Below, in pieces: positions 29,074-39,591 of a DNA stretch of 57,872 bases (the first letter of the stretch is position 1; every line of letters starts with the position of its first letter). The DNA lies in contig JAPPLN010000097.1 of assembly GCA_028874175.1 (NCBI GenBank), positions 1 through 57,872 on the forward strand, read 5' to 3'. Under the pieces are notes generated by a model. It ran no database searches. It worked only from the letters and a program-made list of their open reading frames with translations, and had not been told where the DNA came from. Both the position numbers and the translations under genes were made by a program. This stretch comes from Chloroflexota bacterium (lineage in GTDB: Bacteria > Chloroflexota > UBA11872).

Positions 29074-29418
29074 GTGAACGCGGATCTGGCCGCTATGCGC
29101 GCGTATACGCGTGCGCTGGCATCAAGGACACGGCTGCTGACGCTCGACGAGCTGGCTTCGACCGACGAAGTTGACGTCAGCGAGTTGTCGCGACGCGTCG
29201 GGGTCAGCCAGCCACTCATGTCGTGGCACCTTCGCCGCTTGCGGCGAGCTGGGCTGGTTCGGGCGCGGCGGCAAGGTCGGCGCGTACTTTATTCGCTGGA
29301 CCGACCGACCCTGGGCGCCCGCCACGCGGCGCTCACCAGTCTGATTGACGATCTGACGGCAACCGGCACGCGTCGGTCGGACGCCGAGTCTCCCGAGCCG
29401 GCCCAGGCGCTGGCGTAG
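29074..29418 (+). CDS. ArsR-family winged-helix regulator
   Basis: 114 residues. The DNA-binding domain runs from about residue 12 to 80: ALASRTRLLTLDELASTDEVDVSELSRRVGVSQPLMSWHLRRLRRAGLVRARRQGRRVLYSL, with the recognition helix SQPLMSWHLRRL. There is no CVC or other cysteine metal site, so it probably senses something other than a soft metal. The start is GTG 29074. It is 18 bases from ino1 on the same strand and headed by an AT-rich inverted repeat, so it may control the inositol lipid genes that follow. Confidence 0.87.
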   Translation: MNADLAAMRAYTRALASRTRLLTLDELASTDEVDVSELSRRVGVSQPLMSWHLRRLRRAGLVRARRQGRRVLYSLDRPTLGARHAALTSLIDDLTATGTRRSDAESPEPAQALA

Positions 29419-29436
29419 GCGTGTAGGAGGACGAGT

Positions 29437-30537
29437 GTGTCGAAAGTTCGTGTAGGGATTATCGGCGTAGGCAACTGCGCCTCGTCGCTGGTTCAGGGCG
29501 TGAGCTTTTATCGGGACGCCGCAGCCGACGAGTTTATTCCGGGGCTCATGCACGCACAGCTCGGTCCGTACCACGTGGGTGACGTGGAGTTCACGGCGGC
29601 CATCGACATAGATCGGGGCAAAGTGGGCAAGGACCTATCCGAGGCGCTGGTCGCACCGCCGAACAACACTCCACAATTCGCTGACGTCGGCTATTTGGGC
29701 GTACCGGTGGTTCGGGGTATGACGCACGACGGCATCGGCGCCTATATGGCGGACACTGTGTACAAGGCGGAAGGCGCGACGGACAACATTGTGGAGCTCT
29801 TGCGGGATACGCACACCGACGTGGTGGTGAACTTTCTGCCGGTAGGCAGCGAAGAGGCCACCAAGTGGTACGTGGAGCAGATTCTCAACGCCGGCTGCGC
29901 CATGGTGAACTGCATGCCCGTCTTCATCGCGCGCGAGGAGTACTGGCAGGGGCGGTTCCAGTACGCCGGGGTGCCGATCATCGGTGACGACGTGAAGTCC
30001 CAGGTGGGCGCAACCATTACCCATCGCGTGCTGACCCGGCTCTTTCGGGAGCGGGGCGTCAAGGTTCTGCGCACATACCAGTTGAATGTGGGTGGGAACT
30101 CCGACTTCAAGAACATGCTGGAGCGGTCGCGGCTGGAGTCCAAGAAGATTTCCAAGACCGACGCCGTGACCAGCCAGCTCGAGTACGACATCGGCGCCGA
30201 GAACGTGCACATCGGTCCGAGCGACTTCGTGCCGTGGCTCGGCGACCGCAAGTGGGCCTACATTCGGATGGAAGGCGTGTCGTTCGGCGGGCAGCCGCTG
30301 AACGCCGAGCTGAAGCTGGAAGTGGTGGACTCGCCGAACTCGGCCGGCGTGGTGATTGACGCGCTGCGCTGCTGCAAGATCGCCATGGACCGCGGCCTGA
30401 GCGGCGCGGTGGAAGGGCCGTCGGCGTACCTGATGAAGTCGCCGCCGATCCAGTACTCGGACGAAGAAGCGCGGGTGATGACGGACGAGTTCATCCGCAC
30501 GGCGACGATCGCCGCCGGCACCAGGAGCGATGCATAG
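29437..30537 (+). CDS. ino1: Inositol-3-phosphate synthase (mycobacterial/archaeal type)
   Basis: 366 residues. It converts glucose-6-phosphate to 1L-myo-inositol-1-phosphate using NAD. The NAD motif is [16 protein letters not shown]. Catalytic and fold blocks are [77 protein letters not shown], and [10 protein letters not shown]. The GTG start at 29437 has a TAGGAGG ribosome site. This short form (about 360 residues) is that of Actinobacteria and Archaea. It is the first enzyme gene of a four-gene lipid run. Confidence 0.93.
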
Positions 30538-30540
30538 CGA

Positions 30541-31407
30541 GTGATCACCCTAGTTGCTCTCGTGGCTCGCGCCGAACGGTGGGCGCCCCGCCCGCTGAAG
30601 TTCGGCCTGGCCCGGCTGTTCGGGATGCTGGTGTACTGGCTGGTTCCGCGTATCCGGCGGAACACCACGGCCAATATGTCCGTGGTCCTGGGCCTTCCAC
30701 CTACCGATCCGCGAGTTCGCGCGCTGGCCATGCGGTCCGTGGTCAATTACGGCGAGTACATGGTGGATTTCCTGAGGACTTACCGGATGACGCAGGAGGA
30801 ACTCCTGCGTCACACGGTTGCCATCGAGGGGCTGCACCATTTGCGGGCGTTCAAGAACATGGGATGCGGCGGCATCATGATCACCGCGCACTTCGGCAGC
30901 TGGGACTGCTGCGGCGGCCTGGTGTCGGTGGATCAGCCCACGCATGTCGTGGCGGAGACGTTCGGCAGCCGGTCGGCAACCGCGCTGCTGGACAACGTGC
31001 GAGCGCGCAAGAATCTTCGAACAATCCAGTTGGGAAACGCGGCGCGCGGGATTCTGCGTACGTTGCGGCGCGGCGAGTTCGTGGCGTTGTTGGCCGACCG
31101 GCCGACTCCGGGCAAAGGCGTGCAGGTGATGTTCTTCGACCGGCCGGTGTGGGTTCCGGAGGGCGCGGCGGTGCTTGCCCGGCACACCGGAAGCCCGTTG
31201 CTGGTTGGCGGGATGATCCGCTATCCCGACGGTACGTACTCGGCGCATGGCATGCCGCCAATCGTGATCGATAAGGACCAGCCAGCGGCGGAGGCGGTGC
31301 AGGCGGCGATGCAGCAAGTGATGTGGGACCTGGAAAAGCTGATTCGCAAGGCGCCGGCGCAGTGGTACATGTTCCGCCCGATGTGGCCGGAGGCGCTTGA
31401 CGCGTGA
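30541..31407 (+). CDS. Lysophospholipid/PIM acyltransferase (LpxL/PatA-like)
   Basis: 288 residues of the LpxL/HtrB-like acyltransferase superfamily. The catalytic HX4D motif is HFGSWD in GIMITAHFGSWDCCGG, and the second conserved block is VALLADRPTPGKGVQVMFFDRPVWVPEGAAVLARHTGSPLLVG. The N-terminal hydrophobic region LARLFGMLVYWLVPRIR suggests inner-membrane association. In mycobacteria the homologous gene (PatA) acylates phosphatidylinositol mannosides, and sits, as here, next to a PimA-like GT4 and a CDP-alcohol phosphatidyltransferase. GTG start three bases after the ino1 stop; the end overlaps the GT4 start by four bases. Confidence 0.85.
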   Translation: MITLVALVARAERWAPRPLKFGLARLFGMLVYWLVPRIRRNTTANMSVVLGLPPTDPRVRALAMRSVVNYGEYMVDFLRTYRMTQEELLRHTVAIEGLHHLRAFKNMGCGGIMITAHFGSWDCCGGLVSVDQPTHVVAETFGSRSATALLDNVRARKNLRTIQLGNAARGILRTLRRGEFVALLADRPTPGKGVQVMFFDRPVWVPEGAAVLARHTGSPLLVGGMIRYPDGTYSAHGMPPIVIDKDQPAAEAVQAAMQQVMWDLEKLIRKAPAQWYMFRPMWPEALDA

Positions 31408-32591
31408 GGATTCTGCAGGTCTCGCCGTATGACTTCCCTTACCCCGGAGGCGTGACCCAGCACATATTGAACCTGGAGCGTGAGTTGCGGGCGCGGGGCC
31501 ACGAGGTGGCCATCATGGCGCCGAGTACTGACAACCAGGTTGAAGAAAAGTTTCCGGGGTTCGTGCGCATCGGGTCGCGCGTGGTGCCGTTGCCAGTCAA
31601 CCAGTCGCGGGCGCGGCTGACCCTGTCGCCACAGTTGGTGCCGCGGGTACGCCGCTACCTGCGGCAGCAGCGGTTCGACATCGTGCATTTGCAGGAGCCG
31701 CTGGTTCCGGCGCTGCCGTTGACCGTTCTGCAGTACTCGACGAGCGTGAATGTCGGCACGTTTCACGCCGCGCGCAATTCGGCGCTCTTCTACCGGACCA
31801 CCCGACCGCTGATCCGGCGCTTGCAGCGCCGCCTGCACGGGAAGATCGCGGTTTCGGAAGCGGCGAGGGAACTGGTGTTTCGCTCGTACAAGGGCGCCTA
31901 CCGAATAATCCCGAACGGCATAGACGTCGACTTTTACGGAGCGCCTCAACCGCCGGCGGGCGACGTGCAGGACGGCAAGCTGAATGTCGTGTTCGTGGGC
32001 CGGTTGGAGAAGCGCAAGGGCCTGGACTACCTGCTGCGGGCCATGGCGCTGGTGTGCCAGTTGCGACCGCAGGCCCGGCTGATCGTGATCGGCGCGTTTC
32101 GACCGGGCCAGCGCCGCGCTTACTTGCGACAGATTCAACAGTTCGGCCTGCGGCACGTGGTGTTCAAAGGCTTTGTCTCGGACGAAGAGAAGCGGCAGTA
32201 CCTGCAGACCGCCGACGTCTTCTGCTGGCCGGCCCTGGGCGGCGAAAGCCAGGGCATCACGCTGTTGGAAGCCATGGCCGCCGGAACCCCGGTGGTGGCC
32301 TCAGACATTCCCGCCTCGCGAACCATGCTGACCGACCAGGAGGCGGCAATCCTGGTGCCGCCCAAAGATCATGTCGCGCTGGCGCGGGCCCTGATGCGGG
32401 TAGCCGACAACCCGGACAAAGCCCAGCGGATGGCGGAGGCCGGGCGTCGGCGCGCCCGCGACTTCACGTGGAGCACCATTGCCGATCGCGTATTGGCCTA
32501 CTACGAGGAGCTTCTCAACGAGGACGAGCTTGGCGGGGCCTACTGGTCCGCCGATGCGGACCTCGTGCGGGCCGGGGGCTCGCCATCGTGA
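31404..32591 (+). CDS. GT4 glycosyltransferase, PimA-like
   Basis: 395 residues, GT-B fold, retaining glycosyltransferase family 4. N-terminal domain: MRILQVSPYDFPYPGGVTQHILNLERELRARGHEV (the glycine loop of acceptor-side binding). C-terminal donor domain: LNVVFVGRLEKRKGLDYLLRA and the EX7E region ESQGITLLEAMAAGTPVVASDI. It probably moves mannose or another hexose from a GDP/UDP donor to phosphatidylinositol on the cytoplasmic side. The operon partner genes support a PimA role. GTG 31404 overlaps the acyltransferase stop (GTGA) and its own stop overlaps the next start (GTGA). Confidence 0.87.
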   Translation: MRILQVSPYDFPYPGGVTQHILNLERELRARGHEVAIMAPSTDNQVEEKFPGFVRIGSRVVPLPVNQSRARLTLSPQLVPRVRRYLRQQRFDIVHLQEPLVPALPLTVLQYSTSVNVGTFHAARNSALFYRTTRPLIRRLQRRLHGKIAVSEAARELVFRSYKGAYRIIPNGIDVDFYGAPQPPAGDVQDGKLNVVFVGRLEKRKGLDYLLRAMALVCQLRPQARLIVIGAFRPGQRRAYLRQIQQFGLRHVVFKGFVSDEEKRQYLQTADVFCWPALGGESQGITLLEAMAAGTPVVASDIPASRTMLTDQEAAILVPPKDHVALARALMRVADNPDKAQRMAEAGRRRARDFTWSTIADRVLAYYEELLNEDELGGAYWSADADLVRAGGSPS

Positions 32592-33208
32592 ATAAGGCGC
32601 ATATCGAGGCCAGTACGCGCCGGACGGTTGAGCGGTTGGTGACTCCGCTGGCGCGGACCGGGATCGATCCGAATGCGCTGACGGTTGCGGGGTTAATGGT
32701 CAGCGCGGTGACCGCAGTCTGCATTGGTTTCGGTTGGACGCTGGCTGGTGGACTGCTGGTGCTGGTGACCGGTGGCTTCGACATGCTCGACGGGGCCGTG
32801 GCACGGGTTGGCGGAAACGGCTCGAAGTTCGGCGCGTTTCTCGACTCGACGCTGGACCGATGGGCCGAGGGCCTGATATTCACCGGCCTGGTCTGGTATT
32901 TCGTGGCGCAGGACGCGCGGATCGAGGTGGTGCTGGCCGTGACCACGATGGTGGGCTCGATGCTGATCAGCTACACGCGCGCACGCGCCGAGGGTTTGGG
33001 CGTGGACTGCGAAGTCGGGGTTTTTCAGCGGCCGGAGCGACTGCTCGTGCTGGGGATCTCGCTCCTTGGTCCGGCCTGGCTGTTGAGCGCCGGCTTATGG
33101 CTGCTGAGCGTGGTGACGCAGATCACCGCGGTCCAGCGCATCCTGCACGTACACGGCGAACTCGAGCGGCAGAAGGGCTCGGCCGACGACGACGGGCTAA
33201 CCGAATAG
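32588..33208 (+). CDS. CDP-alcohol phosphatidyltransferase, candidate phosphatidylinositol-phosphate synthase
   Basis: 206 residues, multi-spanning membrane enzyme. The full family signature D-x2-DG-x2-AR-x8-G-x3-D-x3-D is present as DMLDGAVARVGGNGSKFGAFLDSTLD. It joins a CDP-diacylglycerol (or CDP-lipid) to an alcohol; with ino1 in the operon, inositol-1-phosphate is the likely acceptor, giving phosphatidylinositol phosphate as in Actinobacteria. A basic pocket residue set is hinted by ISYTRARAEGLGV. I use GTG 32588, which overlaps the GT4 stop by four bases; a longer frame reaching 32054 is a shadow of the GT4 gene. Confidence 0.87.
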   Translation: MNKAHIEASTRRTVERLVTPLARTGIDPNALTVAGLMVSAVTAVCIGFGWTLAGGLLVLVTGGFDMLDGAVARVGGNGSKFGAFLDSTLDRWAEGLIFTGLVWYFVAQDARIEVVLAVTTMVGSMLISYTRARAEGLGVDCEVGVFQRPERLLVLGISLLGPAWLLSAGLWLLSVVTQITAVQRILHVHGELERQKGSADDDGLTE

Positions 33209-33215
33209 TTCGGAC

Positions 33216-34343
33216 TCAGTCCAGGGGCAGTGCCACGGGCTGACCGCTGAAGTAGGAGGCGTAGCCGGCGAGCAGGGTTTCTACCTGGGCGACGCCGGCT
33301 TCAGCGTTGTTGAGAGTCTCCCGGCCTTCGTCGATGCAGACGATGAATTCGTCGATCAGCGCCTCGATGCCGCCGGAGTCCATGGCGTCGACGCGGGTCG
33401 CTCCCTTGCCATCGTCACCGGGTCTGCCATAGGCCATGGCGGTGGGCGGTGAGCCGTCGGCCACGATCGAGCCGCGGGCGCCAACCACCGACACTTTGTC
33501 CACGCCGCTGCCGGGGTCGGTCTCGCGTCCGTAGCGGCCGGTGGTGATGGTGGACGTGACGCCGTTCTCGAAGGTCATGTGCATGATGGCGAAGTCTTCG
33601 AGGCCGCGCTCGGCGTGGGTGCCCAGCCAGTATTGGCCGAGCTGCGCGTAGACCGTGCGCACCGGCGAATCGGCAAGGTATTGCACTTGTCCCACCGGGT
33701 AGAGACCGATTTCGTGAAGCTCGCGCTTGGCCCAGACGTCGTGGCCGGAGCCCGAGGGATCGGCGTTTTCCGCGCGGTAGGTGAAGCGGGACAGGTCCCT
33801 CGATATGGCGGTTGACCAGTCATCAGGGACGCTGCCAGCCTGGCCCTTGGCGAAGATCAGGTCCCAGTGGATGGTCTTGAGTTCGCCGATGGAGCCCGCG
33901 TCCAACTCGCGCTTGATCTGCCGCATCATCGTCGACAGGTGGCGCCCGTAGATCACGGTGCGGACGTCACGCGCGCGGGCAGCGTCCGCGATGGCACGCG
34001 CTTCGGCCACGGTAATGGCGTTCGGTTTGTCCATGAACAGGTGCTTGCCGGCATCCGCCAGGCGGGCCGACACCCCGCCCCGGCGCTCGAGTTGGGGACA
34101 GACGCTGACGATATCAATGGTGGGATCGTTCGCCACGGCGTCGATGCTCTCGATGTACGGCACGCCGTAGAGGTCGGCCTCGGAGCGGTTGGTTTCGACG
34201 ACGTAGTCGTCGATCTCATTGGGGTCGTCCGCGACGCAGACGACCTCGGTGCGCGGGTGATTGGCGAACGTTGGGGCGTATTGCTGCGGCTGGTGCATGG
34301 CGCAACTCACCAGCGCGACTTTATAGGTCGGCTTGTTGCCCAC
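33216..34343 (-). CDS. Gfo/Idh/MocA family oxidoreductase
   Basis: 375 residues from a GTG at 34343, which has an AGGAG site 8 bases upstream; an ATG at 34385 in the same frame lacks one. The Rossmann start is YKVALVSCAMHQPQQYAPTF, a divergent version without the usual GxGxxG. The conserved lysine region reads HLFMDKPNAITVAEA (DKP instead of EKP). The C-terminal domain has YLADSPVRTVYAQLGQYWLGTHAERGLEDFAIMHMTFENGVTSTITTGRYG. It is convergent with the lipid operon. Substrate unknown, probably a sugar. Confidence 0.8.
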   Translation of the reverse strand: MGNKPTYKVALVSCAMHQPQQYAPTFANHPRTEVVCVADDPNEIDDYVVETNRSEADLYGVPYIESIDAVANDPTIDIVSVCPQLERRGGVSARLADAGKHLFMDKPNAITVAEARAIADAARARDVRTVIYGRHLSTMMRQIKRELDAGSIGELKTIHWDLIFAKGQAGSVPDDWSTAISRDLSRFTYRAENADPSGSGHDVWAKRELHEIGLYPVGQVQYLADSPVRTVYAQLGQYWLGTHAERGLEDFAIMHMTFENGVTSTITTGRYGRETDPGSGVDKVSVVGARGSIVADGSPPTAMAYGRPGDDGKGATRVDAMDSGGIEALIDEFIVCIDEGRETLNNAEAGVAQVETLLAGYASYFSGQPVALPLD

Positions 34344-34449
34344 GGGAGGTGCTCCTACGACGGCGTATCCACCCCAGCGTGACAAGCCCGCGGCCTAGTC
34401 GGCAAATCGGCCTGCCTGGGAGCGACCTCCAGGTGGAGGCTACGGCGCT

Positions 34450-35241
34450 CTAGCCGGGGCTTCGCAGGGGCATGCCCCAGCCGAGTTCGCGTCCGCCCAT
34501 GTAGGAAAGTTCCACGCCTGTGGCCGGGGCCATGTACTCGTATACGACGCCGCGTCGCCCATTGGGCGAGGTGTTGGGCGCGGAGTAATGCCAGGTCAGG
34601 CAATGGAACAGCAGGGCGCCGCCAGCTTCGAACTCGGCGGCCACGGTTTCGGAAGGATCGATCCGCCACTCGTGCAGCGGGTCTTCGAAGAGTCCGCGGC
34701 GATGACTGCCGGGAACGACCTGGATGCAGCCGTTTTCGAGCGTCGAGTCGTCCAGGTAGTACTGGATGGCAATGATGGGCACCTGCTCGGGCTGCAGATC
34801 GGTTCCCCAGGGACGCAGGCGGTCGGCTTCCTCGTGCGTGATGAAGCCTTCCGGCAGGTCCTGGTGCCAGGGCTTGAGGGAACCCTCGAACGGCGGTTTG
34901 ACCATCATCTTGGAGTGATGGAAGCGGATGTCGGGACCCATGAGGTCTTCCATGATGTCCAGAACTTCGTCGCGGCGCATCAGTTCGTCCCAGATCACCC
35001 CACCGTTGAGGTGGATGTGGCTGATCTTGCGGATGGCCACGCGGTCGGTGTGAAGGGCGTTCGGTTCGCGTTGAACGTCCGGATGCTCGTGGGTCTGGAC
35101 CCAACGATCCATGGCATCCATGCTCGCGCTCAGGGTGGCGACGTCGTCGTCGCTGAGGAAGTTGGGCAGAGCCAGGTAGCCGTCGCGCCAGAAGGCATCG
35201 ACCTGGGCCGGCGTCAGGCGAGCGAGCGTTTGGGTAGCCAT
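34450..35241 (-). CDS. Phytanoyl-CoA dioxygenase (PhyH) family protein
   Basis: 263 residues, Fe(II)/2-oxoglutarate-dependent dioxygenase. Opens with LTPAQVDAFWRDGYLALPNFLSDDDV. The iron triad reads HQD (KPWHQDLPEGF) plus a distal His in PGSHRRGLFEDP, with the oxoglutarate Arg expected in the C-terminal HYSAPNTSPNGRRGVVYEY part. The ATG at 35241 has an AAGGGGG ribosome site; the frame extends to 35607 but the extension is a shadow. PhyH enzymes are abundant in marine Chloroflexota; substrate not predictable. It is divergent from the 35360 gene, sharing a 118-base region. Confidence 0.87.
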   Translation of the reverse strand: MATQTLARLTPAQVDAFWRDGYLALPNFLSDDDVATLSASMDAMDRWVQTHEHPDVQREPNALHTDRVAIRKISHIHLNGGVIWDELMRRDEVLDIMEDLMGPDIRFHHSKMMVKPPFEGSLKPWHQDLPEGFITHEEADRLRPWGTDLQPEQVPIIAIQYYLDDSTLENGCIQVVPGSHRRGLFEDPLHEWRIDPSETVAAEFEAGGALLFHCLTWHYSAPNTSPNGRRGVVYEYMAPATGVELSYMGGRELGWGMPLRSPG

Positions 35242-35359
35242 AGTGTTTCCCCCTTTGGCGGCATGGCGTCCGATGGGCCAACGGACGACATGGACCCTCC
35301 AGCTAGACTGATTCTCCCATGCCTTCGCGACACTTCCACGCAGCCGAGCGGGCCCCGTC

Positions 35360-36235
35360 GTGAATTCCGACGCGTCGACCATCGATCTGGGGACGGATCC
35401 GCTGGGCTTCGCAATCGAGGCGCTGAACGACCACACAACGCCTGGCGCTTCCGAGCGGGTAGCAGCCGCTCGGCGCGCCTGGGCGGTTCTGGACATTGCG
35501 TCGTTCCCGAAGGCGTCGGTGGACGCTGCGCGGAGGTTGGCGCTGGGCGTACGGGCATTGGTGTGGGGCGGGCAGCCGGTCGCGCTGGGCGTTGCGCTTG
35601 AAGCCATCGAGGCCGCGGAGCGCTGGTTGGAAAGCGCCCGGCCAGCCGAGGAGTCGTCGCGAGCGGACGCGCAGGAAGCGCGGGGCGTCGCGCGACGCCT
35701 GGCAGCAGGGTCTGGCGGCGAGCCGGACGCTCGGATGCTGGAAGCGGCGGCGATGGACTTGCTGGCGGCTGCGCAGTACCGGCAGCAGGTGGGAGATGCC
35801 GAAGCGGCGGCGCGGACCGACCTCGAAATCGCCGAAGCGTTCGCGGTCTATCCGGCCGATGACCGCGCCCCGCTGATCGAACGAGCGGTGGGGCACGCGC
35901 GGCGCGCGGCGGCAACGTTGACTGCGGCCGTGGACGCCACGGCGCACGCCCGCTGCCAGCTGCTTCTGAGCGGGCTGCTGTTGGATCATCCAAAGACCGA
36001 TCCCAAGCAGTTTGCGCACGCGGCCGTGGGCCTGGCGGACTCGGCGCTCAAGATCGTGGACGCTGAGCGAGCGCCGTTTGTTGCCGCGAGGGCGTGGCGG
36101 GCGCGGGCTCGCGCCCTGGAGCTCAGCGGAAGCACGAACCACAGCGCCGCGTACGCCCGGGCGGCCGATCTGCTATCCGCCGCCGGGCTTGGAGCCGAGA
36201 GTCGACGTCTACGCCGGCGACACCTCTGCGCGTGA
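35360..36235 (+). CDS. Alanine-rich helical-repeat protein coupled to the halogenase
   Basis: 291 residues, nearly all alpha-helical, rich in Ala, Arg and Glu. The pattern of paired helices (for example AAMDLLAAAQYRQQVGDAEAAARTDLEIAEAFAVY and AHARCQLLLSGLLLDHPKTDP) resembles TPR-like solenoids. There is no signal peptide, membrane segment or catalytic motif. The start is GTG 35360. Its stop overlaps the halogenase GTG by four bases (GTGA), so the two are translated together. A scaffold or binding partner of the halogenase is a reasonable guess, not more. Confidence 0.72.
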   Translation: MNSDASTIDLGTDPLGFAIEALNDHTTPGASERVAAARRAWAVLDIASFPKASVDAARRLALGVRALVWGGQPVALGVALEAIEAAERWLESARPAEESSRADAQEARGVARRLAAGSGGEPDARMLEAAAMDLLAAAQYRQQVGDAEAAARTDLEIAEAFAVYPADDRAPLIERAVGHARRAAATLTAAVDATAHARCQLLLSGLLLDHPKTDPKQFAHAAVGLADSALKIVDAERAPFVAARAWRARARALELSGSTNHSAAYARAADLLSAAGLGAESRRLRRRHLCA

Positions 36236-37920
36236 ATAACGGATACGACGCGCTGATCCTGGGCGGAGGCCCGGCGGGATCCACGCTGGCCACGCTGCTG
36301 GCGCAGGACGGGATGCGGGTGGCGCTGGTTGAACGCGAGCACATGCCACGGCCGCACGTGGGCGAGTCGCTGATCCCGGGGGTGCTGCCGGCGCTGGACG
36401 CAAGTGGAGCGCTGCCGTTGGTGCAAGAGGCCGGGTTCACGCAGAAGTTCGGCGCGACGTATATCTGGGGACGGACGCGAGAGCCCTGGACGGTGAAGTT
36501 CAGCGAGGTGTATCCGGATCAGGCCTTCGCCTGGCAGGTGGACCGGGCGAGGTTCGACAAGCTGCTGCTGGACCACGCGGCCGCGGAGGGCGTGGAGGTT
36601 CGGCAAGGCGTCACGGCGCTGGGGCCGCTGGGCTCTGTTGACGACGTGCAGGGGACGCGGGTCCGCGCCGAGGACGGGCGAGAGAGCGCGCTGGCTGCCG
36701 ACTTGACCATCGACGCGACGGGACAGGACGCGCTGTTCGGGCGGGTGTTTCGGACGCGCCAATACAACACGGCGCTGCGGCACGTGGCCTTCTACGGACA
36801 CTGGAGTGGCGGGCGCGCCCTGGATGACGTGCTTGGATCCGATGACACCAAGGACGCAGGGAACATCCTGATTGTCACCGTGCCGGACGGGTGGATCTGG
36901 CACATCCCGATTGCGGACACGATGCGCAGCGTGGGGCTGGTGACGGACCCGGACGCGGTGGCCACCCTCAGCGCGGCCAACCGCACGGACTACTACCTGG
37001 AACAGGTGCGAGCGTGCCCGGAGATGGCCGCACTGCTGGAGGGCGGCACGTGGCTGAGCGAGCGGGTTGAGGCGTTGAGCGACTGGTCGTTCTTTTGTTC
37101 GCGATTCACGGGTCCCGGCTATATGCAGGTGGGCGACGCGGCGTGCTTCATCGACCCGATTTTGTCGACGGGCGTGACACTGGCAGTGAATGGAGCGCTA
37201 CGAGCCGCACGGGCGATACGCACGGGACGGGCGGCACCGTGGCTGCGGGGGCTGGCGATGGACTGGTACGAGACGGAGTACCGCAGTATCGCCACGGACT
37301 TCGCCGACCTGGCGGAGCACTGGTACGGAGGGCACGCGGACACCGACGCCTGGTTCTGGCGGGCCAAGAAGCTGGCCGATCCGACGCAGAACTTCTCGAT
37401 CAGGCAAGCGTTCATCCACCTGTCGGCGGGCGTGACGGGGACCCACGGGGCAGGCGGAAAGTTGCGGTCAGCGGGCGGCTATAGCCCTCGACAGCTGGAA
37501 TTGATCTACGAGAACCTCTCGACGGACCTGGACGCCGAGAGCCAGACCTCAATCAGCGAAGAAGAGGCGAGTTTCGGAACGTCGCCTGTGCGAGCGCATT
37601 CGGCCACGAGCGTGCTGCTTGGACGCCCGCGACTACGCGACGCGATCAGTTTCCGCCCGCACATGGCCGAACATGACGAAATCCTGCGCCCGATCACGCG
37701 GGTGACGCGGGTTCACCCCAACGCCGGTCCGGAGCACATCGAGTTGCCGATCGCGGCGCTGCCGGTACTGGAGCGGCTGGACGGCCGTCGCAGTGGCCTG
37801 GACATCGCGGCCGACCTGCGGGAGCGCTACGCGGGCACACCGATCGAGGCCGACCTGCGCGACCTGGTCGCCACAACGCTCACGCGCCTGGCCGAGACCG
37901 GCGCGGTCGACATCGCGTAG
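36232..37920 (+). CDS. Flavin-dependent halogenase with C-terminal PqqD-like domain
   Basis: 562 residues from GTG 36232; the frame extends upstream to 36094 as a shadow of the preceding gene. FAD motif GGGPAGS (11-17). PRPHVGESLIP (39-49), Lys72 in QKFGATYIWG at the position of the catalytic lysine of CmlS-type halogenases, and DGWIWHIP (219-226) matching the halogenase WxWxIP motif separate it from ordinary monooxygenases. GDAACFIDPILSTGV closes the flavin domain. The last 60 residues (LPIAALPVLERLDGRRSGLDIAADLRERYAG...) resemble a PqqD-type winged helix, the fold that binds leader peptides of RiPPs. A flavin reductase is not nearby. It would chlorinate or brominate an electron-rich substrate, perhaps peptide-bound. 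Confidence 0.82.
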   Translation: MNNGYDALILGGGPAGSTLATLLAQDGMRVALVEREHMPRPHVGESLIPGVLPALDASGALPLVQEAGFTQKFGATYIWGRTREPWTVKFSEVYPDQAFAWQVDRARFDKLLLDHAAAEGVEVRQGVTALGPLGSVDDVQGTRVRAEDGRESALAADLTIDATGQDALFGRVFRTRQYNTALRHVAFYGHWSGGRALDDVLGSDDTKDAGNILIVTVPDGWIWHIPIADTMRSVGLVTDPDAVATLSAANRTDYYLEQVRACPEMAALLEGGTWLSERVEALSDWSFFCSRFTGPGYMQVGDAACFIDPILSTGVTLAVNGALRAARAIRTGRAAPWLRGLAMDWYETEYRSIATDFADLAEHWYGGHADTDAWFWRAKKLADPTQNFSIRQAFIHLSAGVTGTHGAGGKLRSAGGYSPRQLELIYENLSTDLDAESQTSISEEEASFGTSPVRAHSATSVLLGRPRLRDAISFRPHMAEHDEILRPITRVTRVHPNAGPEHIELPIAALPVLERLDGRRSGLDIAADLRERYAGTPIEADLRDLVATTLTRLAETGAVDIA

Positions 37921-37934
37921 ACCGACGGCCAGTC

Positions 37935-38759
37935 TCAGCCGCTGCGCTTCAGGCGACCGTGGCGCAGGGCGTAGCGTTCGGCCCAGCCGAAGACCCAGAC
38001 GCCGACGGGCATGGTGACGGCGGTGATGAGCATCAGGGGACCGAAGTGGGGCAGCAGGTCGACCAGGGTGACGCCGTCGAGCACGGCGGCGCGCATGGCG
38101 TTGAGGACGTAGGTGGCGGGCGAGATCACGGAGAACCACTCCAGCCAGTCGGGCAGGACCTCGACGGGGTAGTACACGCCGGAGACGAGCAGCAGCGAGG
38201 CCTGGACGACCACAGTCATCTGCGAGCCGCGTTCCAGGAACAGCAGCGGCAGCGCGGCCGCCATGATGCCGATGCCAAGCAGCCCCAGGCTGCCGATCGC
38301 CAGCACGGCAAAGGCGCCGACCCAGTTGGCCGCGGCCAGGTCCAGACTGAAGAACAGGGCCACGACGACCAGGATCACGACGGCGCGGGCGAACGAGTAG
38401 AGCACGGCGAAGGCGGAGCTGCCGGCGATGAACGTGACGCGGCGGATGGGGGCCATGAAGGTGCTTTCGATCGTGCCTTCCCAGCGCTCCCACGAGACCA
38501 TGAAGGCCACCGAATCGAAGACGCTGTCGAGGTAGGCCCAGACCACGGTGCCGACGACCAGGAACAGGATCAGGCGGTCGGCATCGAACTGCTGGCCGGC
38601 CACAACCACGCCGCCGGGCGCGATGTAAGCGACGGTGAGCGCGCTGACGATTGAGTGAAAGAGGAATACGACCTCCCAACCCCAGTAGCGGCGCACGGCG
38701 CGGAAGTTGCGTTCGACGAAGGCGTATGAGGCGCCCAGTTCACGTCTCAACGGAACCAT
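37935..38759 (-). CDS. ABC-2 type transporter permease
   Basis: 274 residues with about six transmembrane helices: VVFLFHSIVSALTVAYIA, LILFLVVGTVVWAYL, AVVILVVVALFFSL, VGAFAVLAIGSLGLLGIGIMAAALPLL, VVVQASLLLVSGVYYPVEVLPDWL (the usual ABC-2 gating stretch) and LMLITAVTMPVGVWVFGW. ATG 38759 has a GGAGGAGG site that lies in the end of the ATPase gene; the longer frame to 38888 is a shadow. Together with the ATPase it forms a two-gene exporter. It converges on the halogenase gene with a 14-base gap. Confidence 0.87.
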   Translation of the reverse strand: MVPLRRELGASYAFVERNFRAVRRYWGWEVVFLFHSIVSALTVAYIAPGGVVVAGQQFDADRLILFLVVGTVVWAYLDSVFDSVAFMVSWERWEGTIESTFMAPIRRVTFIAGSSAFAVLYSFARAVVILVVVALFFSLDLAAANWVGAFAVLAIGSLGLLGIGIMAAALPLLFLERGSQMTVVVQASLLLVSGVYYPVEVLPDWLEWFSVISPATYVLNAMRAAVLDGVTLVDLLPHFGPLMLITAVTMPVGVWVFGWAERYALRHGRLKRSG

Positions 38760-38763
38760 CAGG

Positions 38764-39591
38764 TCAACCTCCTCCGCCGGCGGCGGTTTCGTCGGGTTCA
38801 TGAACTTCGACGGCGTGGCCGGTGAGCCGGATGAAGGCGTCTTCCAGGGTCTCGCCCTCGCGGCGGAGGGCGCTGGGTTTGTCTTCAACCAGGATTCGGC
38901 CTTTTTCGATCACGGCCAGGCGGTTGCAAAGCTGCTCGGCCTCGTCCATGTCGTGGGTCATCAGAATCACGGTGGCGTCGTGGGTGTCTCGGACCTCGCG
39001 AATGAAGTCCTGGACTTCGCGCTTGGAGCGTGGATCGAGGCCCGTGGTGGGTTCGTCAAGAATCAGGAGCACGGGCGAGGTGAGCAGGGCGCGGGCCACG
39101 GCGACCTTTTGCTGCTGGCCGCGGGACATCTGGTCCATGGGGCGGCGGATCGCCTTCTCCTCGATGTCCAGGCGCTTGAGGATTTCGAAGATCTGCTGGT
39201 GAGCCTCAGCGGCCGGGAGTCCGTAGATGCGGGCGGTGAAGGTCAGGTTCTCGAGCGGGCTGAGTTTCTTGAAGAACGACGCCTCGACGGAGACGCGGTT
39301 CATGAAGCGACGCACGGTGCGGGCCTCGCGGACGACGTCGTGACCGAAGACCCGGACCGAGCCCGAGTCCGGGAGCAACAGGGTGGCGATGACGCGGGCC
39401 AGGGTGGACTTGCCCGATCCGTTGGACCCGACGATGCCGTAGACCTCGCCGCGCCGGACCTGGACGCTGATGGCGTCGAGCGCCACGATCGGATCCTTGA
39501 GCGGCCGGCCCAGGGCGCGCCGCCACGCGCCGCCAACGCCGGCGGGGTCGAAACGTTTGACCAGGTGGTCGATGGATACAGCGGGTTGCAT
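38764..39591 (-). CDS. ABC transporter ATP-binding protein
   Basis: 275 residues. Walker A GSNGSGKS, signature MSRGQQQKVAVARALL (degenerate LSGGQ, with SRGQQ), Walker B VLLILDEPTTGLDPRSK and H-loop LMTHDMDEAEQL. The insertion around residues 15-35 before the strand leading to Walker A is typical of ATPases paired with ABC-2 permeases for polysaccharide, drug or lipid export. It is followed by the permease gene four bases later. Cargo unknown; the facing halogenase makes a small natural product a candidate, but by context only. Confidence 0.9.
   Translation of the reverse strand: MQPAVSIDHLVKRFDPAGVGGAWRRALGRPLKDPIVALDAISVQVRRGEVYGIVGSNGSGKSTLARVIATLLLPDSGSVRVFGHDVVREARTVRRFMNRVSVEASFFKKLSPLENLTFTARIYGLPAAEAHQQIFEILKRLDIEEKAIRRPMDQMSRGQQQKVAVARALLTSPVLLILDEPTTGLDPRSKREVQDFIREVRDTHDATVILMTHDMDEAEQLCNRLAVIEKGRILVEDKPSALRREGETLEDAFIRLTGHAVEVHEPDETAAGGGG

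Follow-up and report, generated by a model that had tools for sequence, protein, structure and literature searches.

A putative Chloroflexota flavin halogenase with an RRE-like C-terminal tail and an overlapping gene for a probable repeat-family partner: three conserved paralogues and an independent neighbouring exporter

The flavin halogenases FasV, CndH, and CmlS serve small-molecule pathways. Enzymes of this kind are found by means of three regions, namely a lysine, the WxWxIP motif, and the GxGxxG site (PMC5945002). The sponge-microbiome enzyme SrpI, a flavin peptidyl brominase modifying a ribosomal peptide, is reported to lack an embedded RiPP recognition element (RRE; RiPP, ribosomally synthesized and post-translationally modified peptide) and to require no trans-acting one (PMC10858898). 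The ammosamide cluster comprises the tetratricopeptide repeat (TPR) protein AmmC2, the RRE-like protein Amm10, and the flavin halogenase Amm3, which is reported to act on a small molecule once it has been released, as well as peptide aminoacyl-tRNA ligases (PEARLs) and a scaffold peptide (PMC12424672), and QhpG is described as a peptidyl Trp dihydroxylase acting on protein-borne Trp (PMC7876137). Here we describe a locus from a Chloroflexota bacterium (assembly GCA_028874175.1, contig JAPPLN010000097.1, positions 1-57,872; this whole stretch of 57,872 nucleotides is called the window), in which a putative flavin halogenase, designated paralogue A, ends in an RRE-like tail and directly follows the gene of a partner protein. 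Our leading but still tentative reading is that of an FADH2-dependent halogenase for an aromatic group tethered to a protein, a peptide, or a carrier that is encoded elsewhere. The features of this gene pair are as follows:

35360..36235, + strand: Ala-rich partner, 291 amino acids (aa), 26% Ala; open reading frame (ORF) with a 4-bp overlap between its stop codon and the beginning of the halogenase gene
36232..37920 (end of stop codon), + strand: putative FAD-dependent halogenase, paralogue A, 562 aa, GTG start at 36232; from Pfam, NCBIfam, PDB, and Foldseek
36445..36447, + strand: codon of the catalytic-type Lys72 (K-F-G-A-T), aligned with the Lys of FasV, CndH, and CmlS
36892..36909, + strand: WxWxIP motif, residues 221-226 (W-I-W-H-I-P), in 36/36 aligned proteins
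37147..37173, + strand: FxxPxxSxG motif, residues 306-314 (F-I-D-P-I-L-S-T-G), Ser in 27/36
37594..37917, + strand: C-terminal tail, residues 455-562, PqqD/RRE-like winged helix of beta3-alpha3 order, from profiles and predicted fold

The 562-aa protein matched Pfam Trp_halogenase with an E value of 7.5e-36, and NCBIfam ranked CmlS first (218 bits), followed by QhpG (193 bits) and the geranylgeranyl reductase superfamily (112 bits), each below its own cut-off. The top entries in a search of PDB sequences were 8zop (FasV by title, E 2e-73), CndH (5e-67), and CmlS (3e-52), after which came ChlB4, Mpy16, PltA, RadH, the flavoprotein 3nix (E 3e-36), and entries for Bmp2; geranylgeranyl reductase (E 6e-15) and QhpG (E 6e-9) stood far lower. 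Halogenases also ranked first in Foldseek with the full-length model, which was built from 9 sequences and has a mean predicted local distance difference test (pLDDT) score of 75, with a poor region at residues 366-433. The three sequence marks of flavin halogenases, i.e., the GxGxxG FAD site, Lys72, and W-x-W-H-I-P, were present. Lys72 stands opposite a Lys in FasV, CndH, and CmlS in the sequence alignment, and Lys72 and WxWHIP were found in 36/36 proteins of an alignment comprising 13 A, 9 B, and 13 C paralogues and one protein from G020, a genome of the same order (the window protein is included). The FxxPxxSxG motif was intact in 27/36. Thus, the Lys72 in its FGAT context and the WxWxIP motif, from which the initial annotation had judged halogenation to be likely, were confirmed, and the sequence comparisons support the assignment to flavin halogenases closest to FasV, CndH, and CmlS and not to reductases. 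A geranylgeranyl reductase or plain monooxygenase was ruled out by the PDB sequence ranking, Foldseek, and Lys72 together with WxWxIP, halogenases coming first both by sequence and by fold. The second rank of QhpG in NCBIfam (cut-off 240 bits) and the presence of LodB/GoxB among the matches could suggest that the protein is no halogenase at all and instead works on a protein partner, in the manner of QhpG or LodB, as peptidyl oxygenase or maturase; we consider this improbable given the wide distance between the E values of QhpG and the halogenases in the PDB search and the invariance of Lys72 and WxWxIP in the 36 aligned proteins, a set to which QhpG does not belong.

The C-terminal tail had initially been described as a PqqD-type winged helix of 60 residues, of which the fold stood, by model and profiles, and the length did not: the domain has about 100 residues (about 460-562). 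In the full-length model, pLDDT values from residue 461 onwards are mostly 84-95 with one dip to 70, and the tail modelled alone from a 19-row alignment reached 95. Its predicted secondary structure consists of three strands (E18-27, E30-39, E47-52) and three helices (H53-59, H68-78, H83-101), flanked on either side by short additional elements; this beta3-alpha3 order fits the strict RRE definition of PMC12710340. Pfam PqqD scored 18.3 bits with the whole protein and 21.7 bits with the tail alone (cut-off 23.4), and NCBIfam PQQ_PqqD 20.5 bits (cut-off 46). When the tails of the paralogues were searched against NCBIfam, PQQ_PqqD was best for A and B and PqqD_rel_X for C, all below cut-off. A Pfam scan of seven tails gave sub-threshold PqqD matches in five, no family in one (L043), and other families in one (L111); the C tail matched the methyltransferase winged helix PKMT_2nd (PF21782), likewise sub-threshold, above PqqD. 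As a single query against PDB sequences, the window tail had no match at E 10. A profile of 19 tails placed PqqD entries in the top three among all PDB sequences (E 0.0025, 0.013, and 0.016), followed by a protein lysine methyltransferase (E 0.42). In the fold search, the Rv2067c methyltransferase (8hkr) was best (E 2.7e-3), followed by GdmN (7e-3) and the lasso RRE TbiB1 (5v1u, 0.01), the latter on rank 7 with a probability of 1.00 behind chains of 8hkr and GdmN, and no hit reached E 0.001. A structural match to PqqD/RRE was thus obtained, though a modest one. The tail may be described as RRE-like in predicted fold and in sequence and also as a general winged helix of non-RiPP enzymes; since it matches C-terminal domains of protein lysine methyltransferases as well, a role in RiPP recognition remains putative.

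Searched against its own genome at E 1, the tail profile found only the loci of paralogues A, B, and C. The alignment (A2) behind the tail profile, the tail model, the Foldseek search of the tail, and this genome search contains four rows from a Dehalococcoidia group (L108-L114). After rebuilding the profile without L108-L114, no significant match was obtained in that group (best E 0.14, to another ORF; L114 halogenase 0.28), and given this result we do not claim that these halogenases share the tail. L108-L114 and L118 form a separate Dehalococcoidia/Chloroflexi halogenase group, 35-41% identical and with a C-terminal extension of its own; a gene for a 547-aa enzyme lies upstream of the halogenase in L111, L112, and L113.

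The Ala-rich protein, said in the initial annotation to be translated in lock-step upstream, is indeed tightly coupled to the halogenase. The TGA of the partner and the GTG of the halogenase overlap by 4 bp, and this overlap occurs at 13/13 A loci and at 11/13 C loci, where the two remaining gaps are 11 and 20 bp (starts were chosen by rule, and small gaps depend on that choice). Purifying selection was detected on both genes in five pairwise congener comparisons of A (ratio of nonsynonymous to synonymous substitution rates, dN/dS, 0.22-0.27 for the partner and 0.10-0.13 for the halogenase). Self-similarity was strongest at a shift of 46 residues in each partner family (average of six A, three B, and six C sequences); in single sequences, this period was clear in B and C, some of which peak at twice the shift, and weak in A. 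Partners of B and C matched each other with E of about 1e-30, and those of A were linked to them by profile comparison (E 4e-5). TPRs proper have 34 residues per repeat, and the Pfam TPR cut-off was not reached by the C partner (best TPR_2, 20.8 bits vs 27), and no Pfam TPR match came from the other partners scanned (one of B, three of A). From the repeat and profile evidence we infer TPR-like proteins, with good support for B and C and moderate support for A. The window partner is probably a degenerate, presumably helical member of this family of 46-residue TPR-like repeats.

Besides A, the genome encodes two further halogenases, B (G000:C24) and C (G000:C17); the three are 43-48% identical, all carry the tail, and each has a repeat-protein partner. 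Among the 13 genomes of the genus, A and C were found in 13/13 and B in 12/13, nine of the latter being whole, two cut by contig ends (G010, G012), and one a contig-end piece 74% identical to B (G008); B was not found in G003. No halogenase was found in the six genomes of the sister genus, and only G020 among five genomes of the same order had one (45% identical). In the tree, A, B, and C each formed one clade with 99-100% support; outgroups are long branches, the row of L115 is untrimmed at its start, and only the monophyly of the three was used. A, B, and C are old paralogues constituting three conserved modules. Coupling of halogenase and partner persists throughout the genus in A and C, and the B partner is variably placed. 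A repeat protein lies near the B halogenase in 4/9 loci, once with an intervening gene. B-type partners occur in 12/13 genomes: four have it near the B halogenase, G012 has it on the contig with the first part of B, and the other seven have it on a contig different from that of the B halogenase. The same 12/13 genomes contain the B halogenase, complete or fragmentary, and G003 is without both. In the genome of the window, the intact B-type partner is located on contig C21 (L123:2758-4476), and a decayed repeat-protein remnant with three stops (G000:C24:6114-6404) was noticed near paralogue B (L008). The order partner, membrane protein, halogenase is seen in L055 and is apparently broken up in several genomes. 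At the C locus, a START/Polyketide_cyc2 protein (L007:9683-10153) adjoins the C partner and was matched in 12/12 congener C loci, the match in L068, near a contig end, covering only a third, and none was found in the G020 stretch. C loci also carry a nucleoside hydrolase by sequence reading, and the contexts of B vary.

Based on the conserved residues and by analogy with the relatives, FADH2 would come from a separate flavin reductase (two flavin reductase matches were found in the genome), the flavin hydroperoxide (FAD-OOH) would oxidise chloride or bromide to hypohalite, and hypohalite would reach Lys72, which would halogenate an electron-rich aromatic. The tail and the co-translated partner may recruit or position a macromolecular substrate, be it a protein or peptide to be modified at an aromatic residue or a group bound to a carrier. 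This substrate would be encoded away from the locus, and the modules A, B, and C with their own partners may handle different substrates. It is unlikely, in our estimate, that the three modules go further and form a stand-alone protein or peptide halogenation system with targets in trans outside any cluster, amounting to a genus-conserved post-translational halogenation.

Searches for a substrate concentrated on precursors, modifying enzymes, and carriers. The initial annotation had seen no precursor peptide, and our screen of ORFs of 22-130 aa in the gaps of locus A (with 29074-33208 treated as occupied, and restricted to ORFs neither within nor opposite genes) yielded no good candidate either; two ORFs lay mostly outside listed genes, each matched in 3/12 congeners. 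YcaO had no match in the genome, in a search that was positive in 5/14 control genomes, and the NHLP leader had none, either here or in the control genomes, which makes the latter search uninformative. Three PP-binding matches were located on contigs C53 and C105, away from the contigs that carry A, B, and C. On C53 (L131), which holds two of them, we noticed by eye a large type I polyketide synthase-like ORF and a possible phosphopantetheinyl transferase. Elsewhere, in Methylothermaceae (L119, L120, L122), an ORF that looks ketosynthase-like by eye is followed downstream by a tandem pair of related flavoproteins. With no precursor in the limited screen, no YcaO, and a tail fold at least as close to non-RiPP enzymes, RiPP chemistry remains a hypothesis. 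Apart from the partner, no biosynthetic gene was recognised as common to the A, B, and C loci (ORF lists, with Pfam on part of them), which speaks against a cluster of the classical kind; a substrate encoded in trans would be compatible with it, and so would a free metabolite.

In the latter case, the enzyme would halogenate a phenol, indole, or pyrrole as a free small molecule, with the tail as a structural or dimerisation module and the partner as a chaperone or regulator. We regard this as nearly as probable as a tethered substrate: FasV, CndH, and CmlS act in small-molecule pathways, the tail fold also occurs in the carbamoyltransferases GdmN and NovN, neither a good precursor candidate in the limited screen of locus A nor a YcaO match was found, and, in the ammosamide pathway, the small-molecule action of Amm3 goes along with TPR and RRE-like proteins (PMC12424672). 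It fits less well with the failure to recognise a biosynthetic cluster at A, B, or C, within the same ORF lists and partial Pfam scan, and with the retention of a dedicated co-translated partner across the genus. Several observations in turn weigh against the tethered-substrate reading itself. Neither substrate nor precursor was found in the limited screen of locus A, the tail scores stay below the Pfam and NCBIfam cut-offs, its best folds are a protein lysine methyltransferase and carbamoyltransferases, and PKMT_2nd outranks PqqD for the C tail. The profile link from A partners to those of B and C has a probability of only 69%, the window partner peaks at a shift of 68 residues, with 13/300 shuffles reaching its value at 46, and the B halogenase adjoins its partner in 4/9 loci only. 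G003, the genome without both B genes, is only 76% complete, no partner of this kind was found in the stretch around the G020 halogenase, which does carry the tail, and the Ser of FxxPxxSxG is replaced by Ala in all 9 B paralogues aligned.

The neighbours of the pair comprise:

37935..38888, - strand: ABC-2 (ATP-binding cassette) permease, convergent neighbour outside the halogenase system; from Pfam and genome comparison
38764..39591, - strand: ABC ATPase of the same exporter, neighbour outside the halogenase system; from NCBIfam and locus comparison
34450..35281, - strand: dioxygenase of the PhyH type, a divergent gene of the halogenase block, with a putative functional link to the halogenase; from Pfam and locus comparison

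The PhyH gene belongs, together with a Gfo/Idh/MocA oxidoreductase (33216-35281 for both), to the block of the halogenase pair and was matched in 12/12 congener loci. As stated initially, a two-gene ABC-2 exporter faces the halogenase (37935-39591, - strand), and this convergent pair is real, standing beside the halogenase in the window and 11/12 congeners. Its membership in the system was not borne out. Permease matches at E 1e-30 were found in 12/13 genomes of the genus (not in G003), in 6/6 halogenase-free genomes of the sister genus, and in 3/5 of the same order. Four of the six sister-genus loci were fetched; all show permease and ATPase ordered as in the window and accompanied by NuoB and a PHP gene. 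Halogenase, partner, and PhyH were not found in any of these four stretches. In G020, the exporter lies between a glycosyltransferase (GT)/CDP-alcohol transferase pair and the PHP gene on a different contig from the halogenase, and G003 has kept the block of Gfo/Idh, PhyH, partner, and halogenase without the exporter. A permease match with one internal TGA was noticed in G008 (G008:C196:11111-12058). Since the links of the exporter to PHP/NuoB in the sister genus and to GT/CDP-alcohol transferase in G020 are seen without the block, the block was inserted in the genus or lost elsewhere.

Comparison of the neighbourhood in related genomes thus separated the exporter from the halogenase block. 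The exporter is evolutionarily independent of the halogenase and offers no evidence of a secreted product; being present in the halogenase-free sister genus and absent beside the G003 halogenase, it was rejected as part of the system, and no dedicated exporter was found at locus A. The initial proposal of a RiPP-like system that yields a halogenated product and has a dedicated exporter at the locus, suggested by the adjoining ABC-2 pair and the PqqD-like tail, is consequently very improbable, and the comparison with the sister genus serves as a warning against reading a neighbouring exporter as a cluster member. If true, the combination of a built-in domain resembling a peptide grip with a co-translated repeat protein would give halogenases a novel means of finding their target, and the conservation of A and C in all genomes of the genus and of B in all but one gives, in the conserved pair, concrete candidates for expression and pull-down.

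Compared with known systems, the tail shares the common beta3-alpha3 order of PqqD/RRE domains (PF05402; TbiB1, 5v1u; 5sxy) and scores below the curated cut-offs, so that leader binding is putative; the winged helix of the protein lysine methyltransferase Rv2067c (8hkr), its best fold, is there attached to a methyltransferase. A literature search of titles and abstract openings, with subscription journals mostly outside its coverage, gave no description of a flavin halogenase fused to an RRE. In the ammosamide cluster, TPR protein, RRE-like protein, and halogenase are separate proteins, whereas here the predicted winged helix is inside the halogenase and no cluster was seen (PMC12424672). The parallel drawn initially to halogenases of sponge microbiomes acting on ribosomal peptides holds in part: SrpI acts on such a peptide, but is reported to lack an RRE (PMC10858898), so that the window enzyme, with its RRE-like tail and in a genome without a YcaO match, is not simply SrpI, the two being set apart by their descriptions and not by sequence. 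QhpG belongs to the same flavoprotein superfamily and is much more distant in sequence than the halogenases. Closest remain FasV (8zop), CndH (3e1t), and CmlS (3i3l), with 36%, 32%, and 24% identity in Foldseek alignments, in which the Lys, WxWxIP, and the F-x-D-P-x-x-S-x-G loop align with the window halogenase. Their sequence alignments to it end near residue 402 of 562, and the 50 hits listed for the tail fold search include none of the three; CmlS nevertheless gave a 583-column Foldseek alignment with the full model at 9.7 A root mean square deviation, so that a distant likeness of the C-terminal domains may exist.

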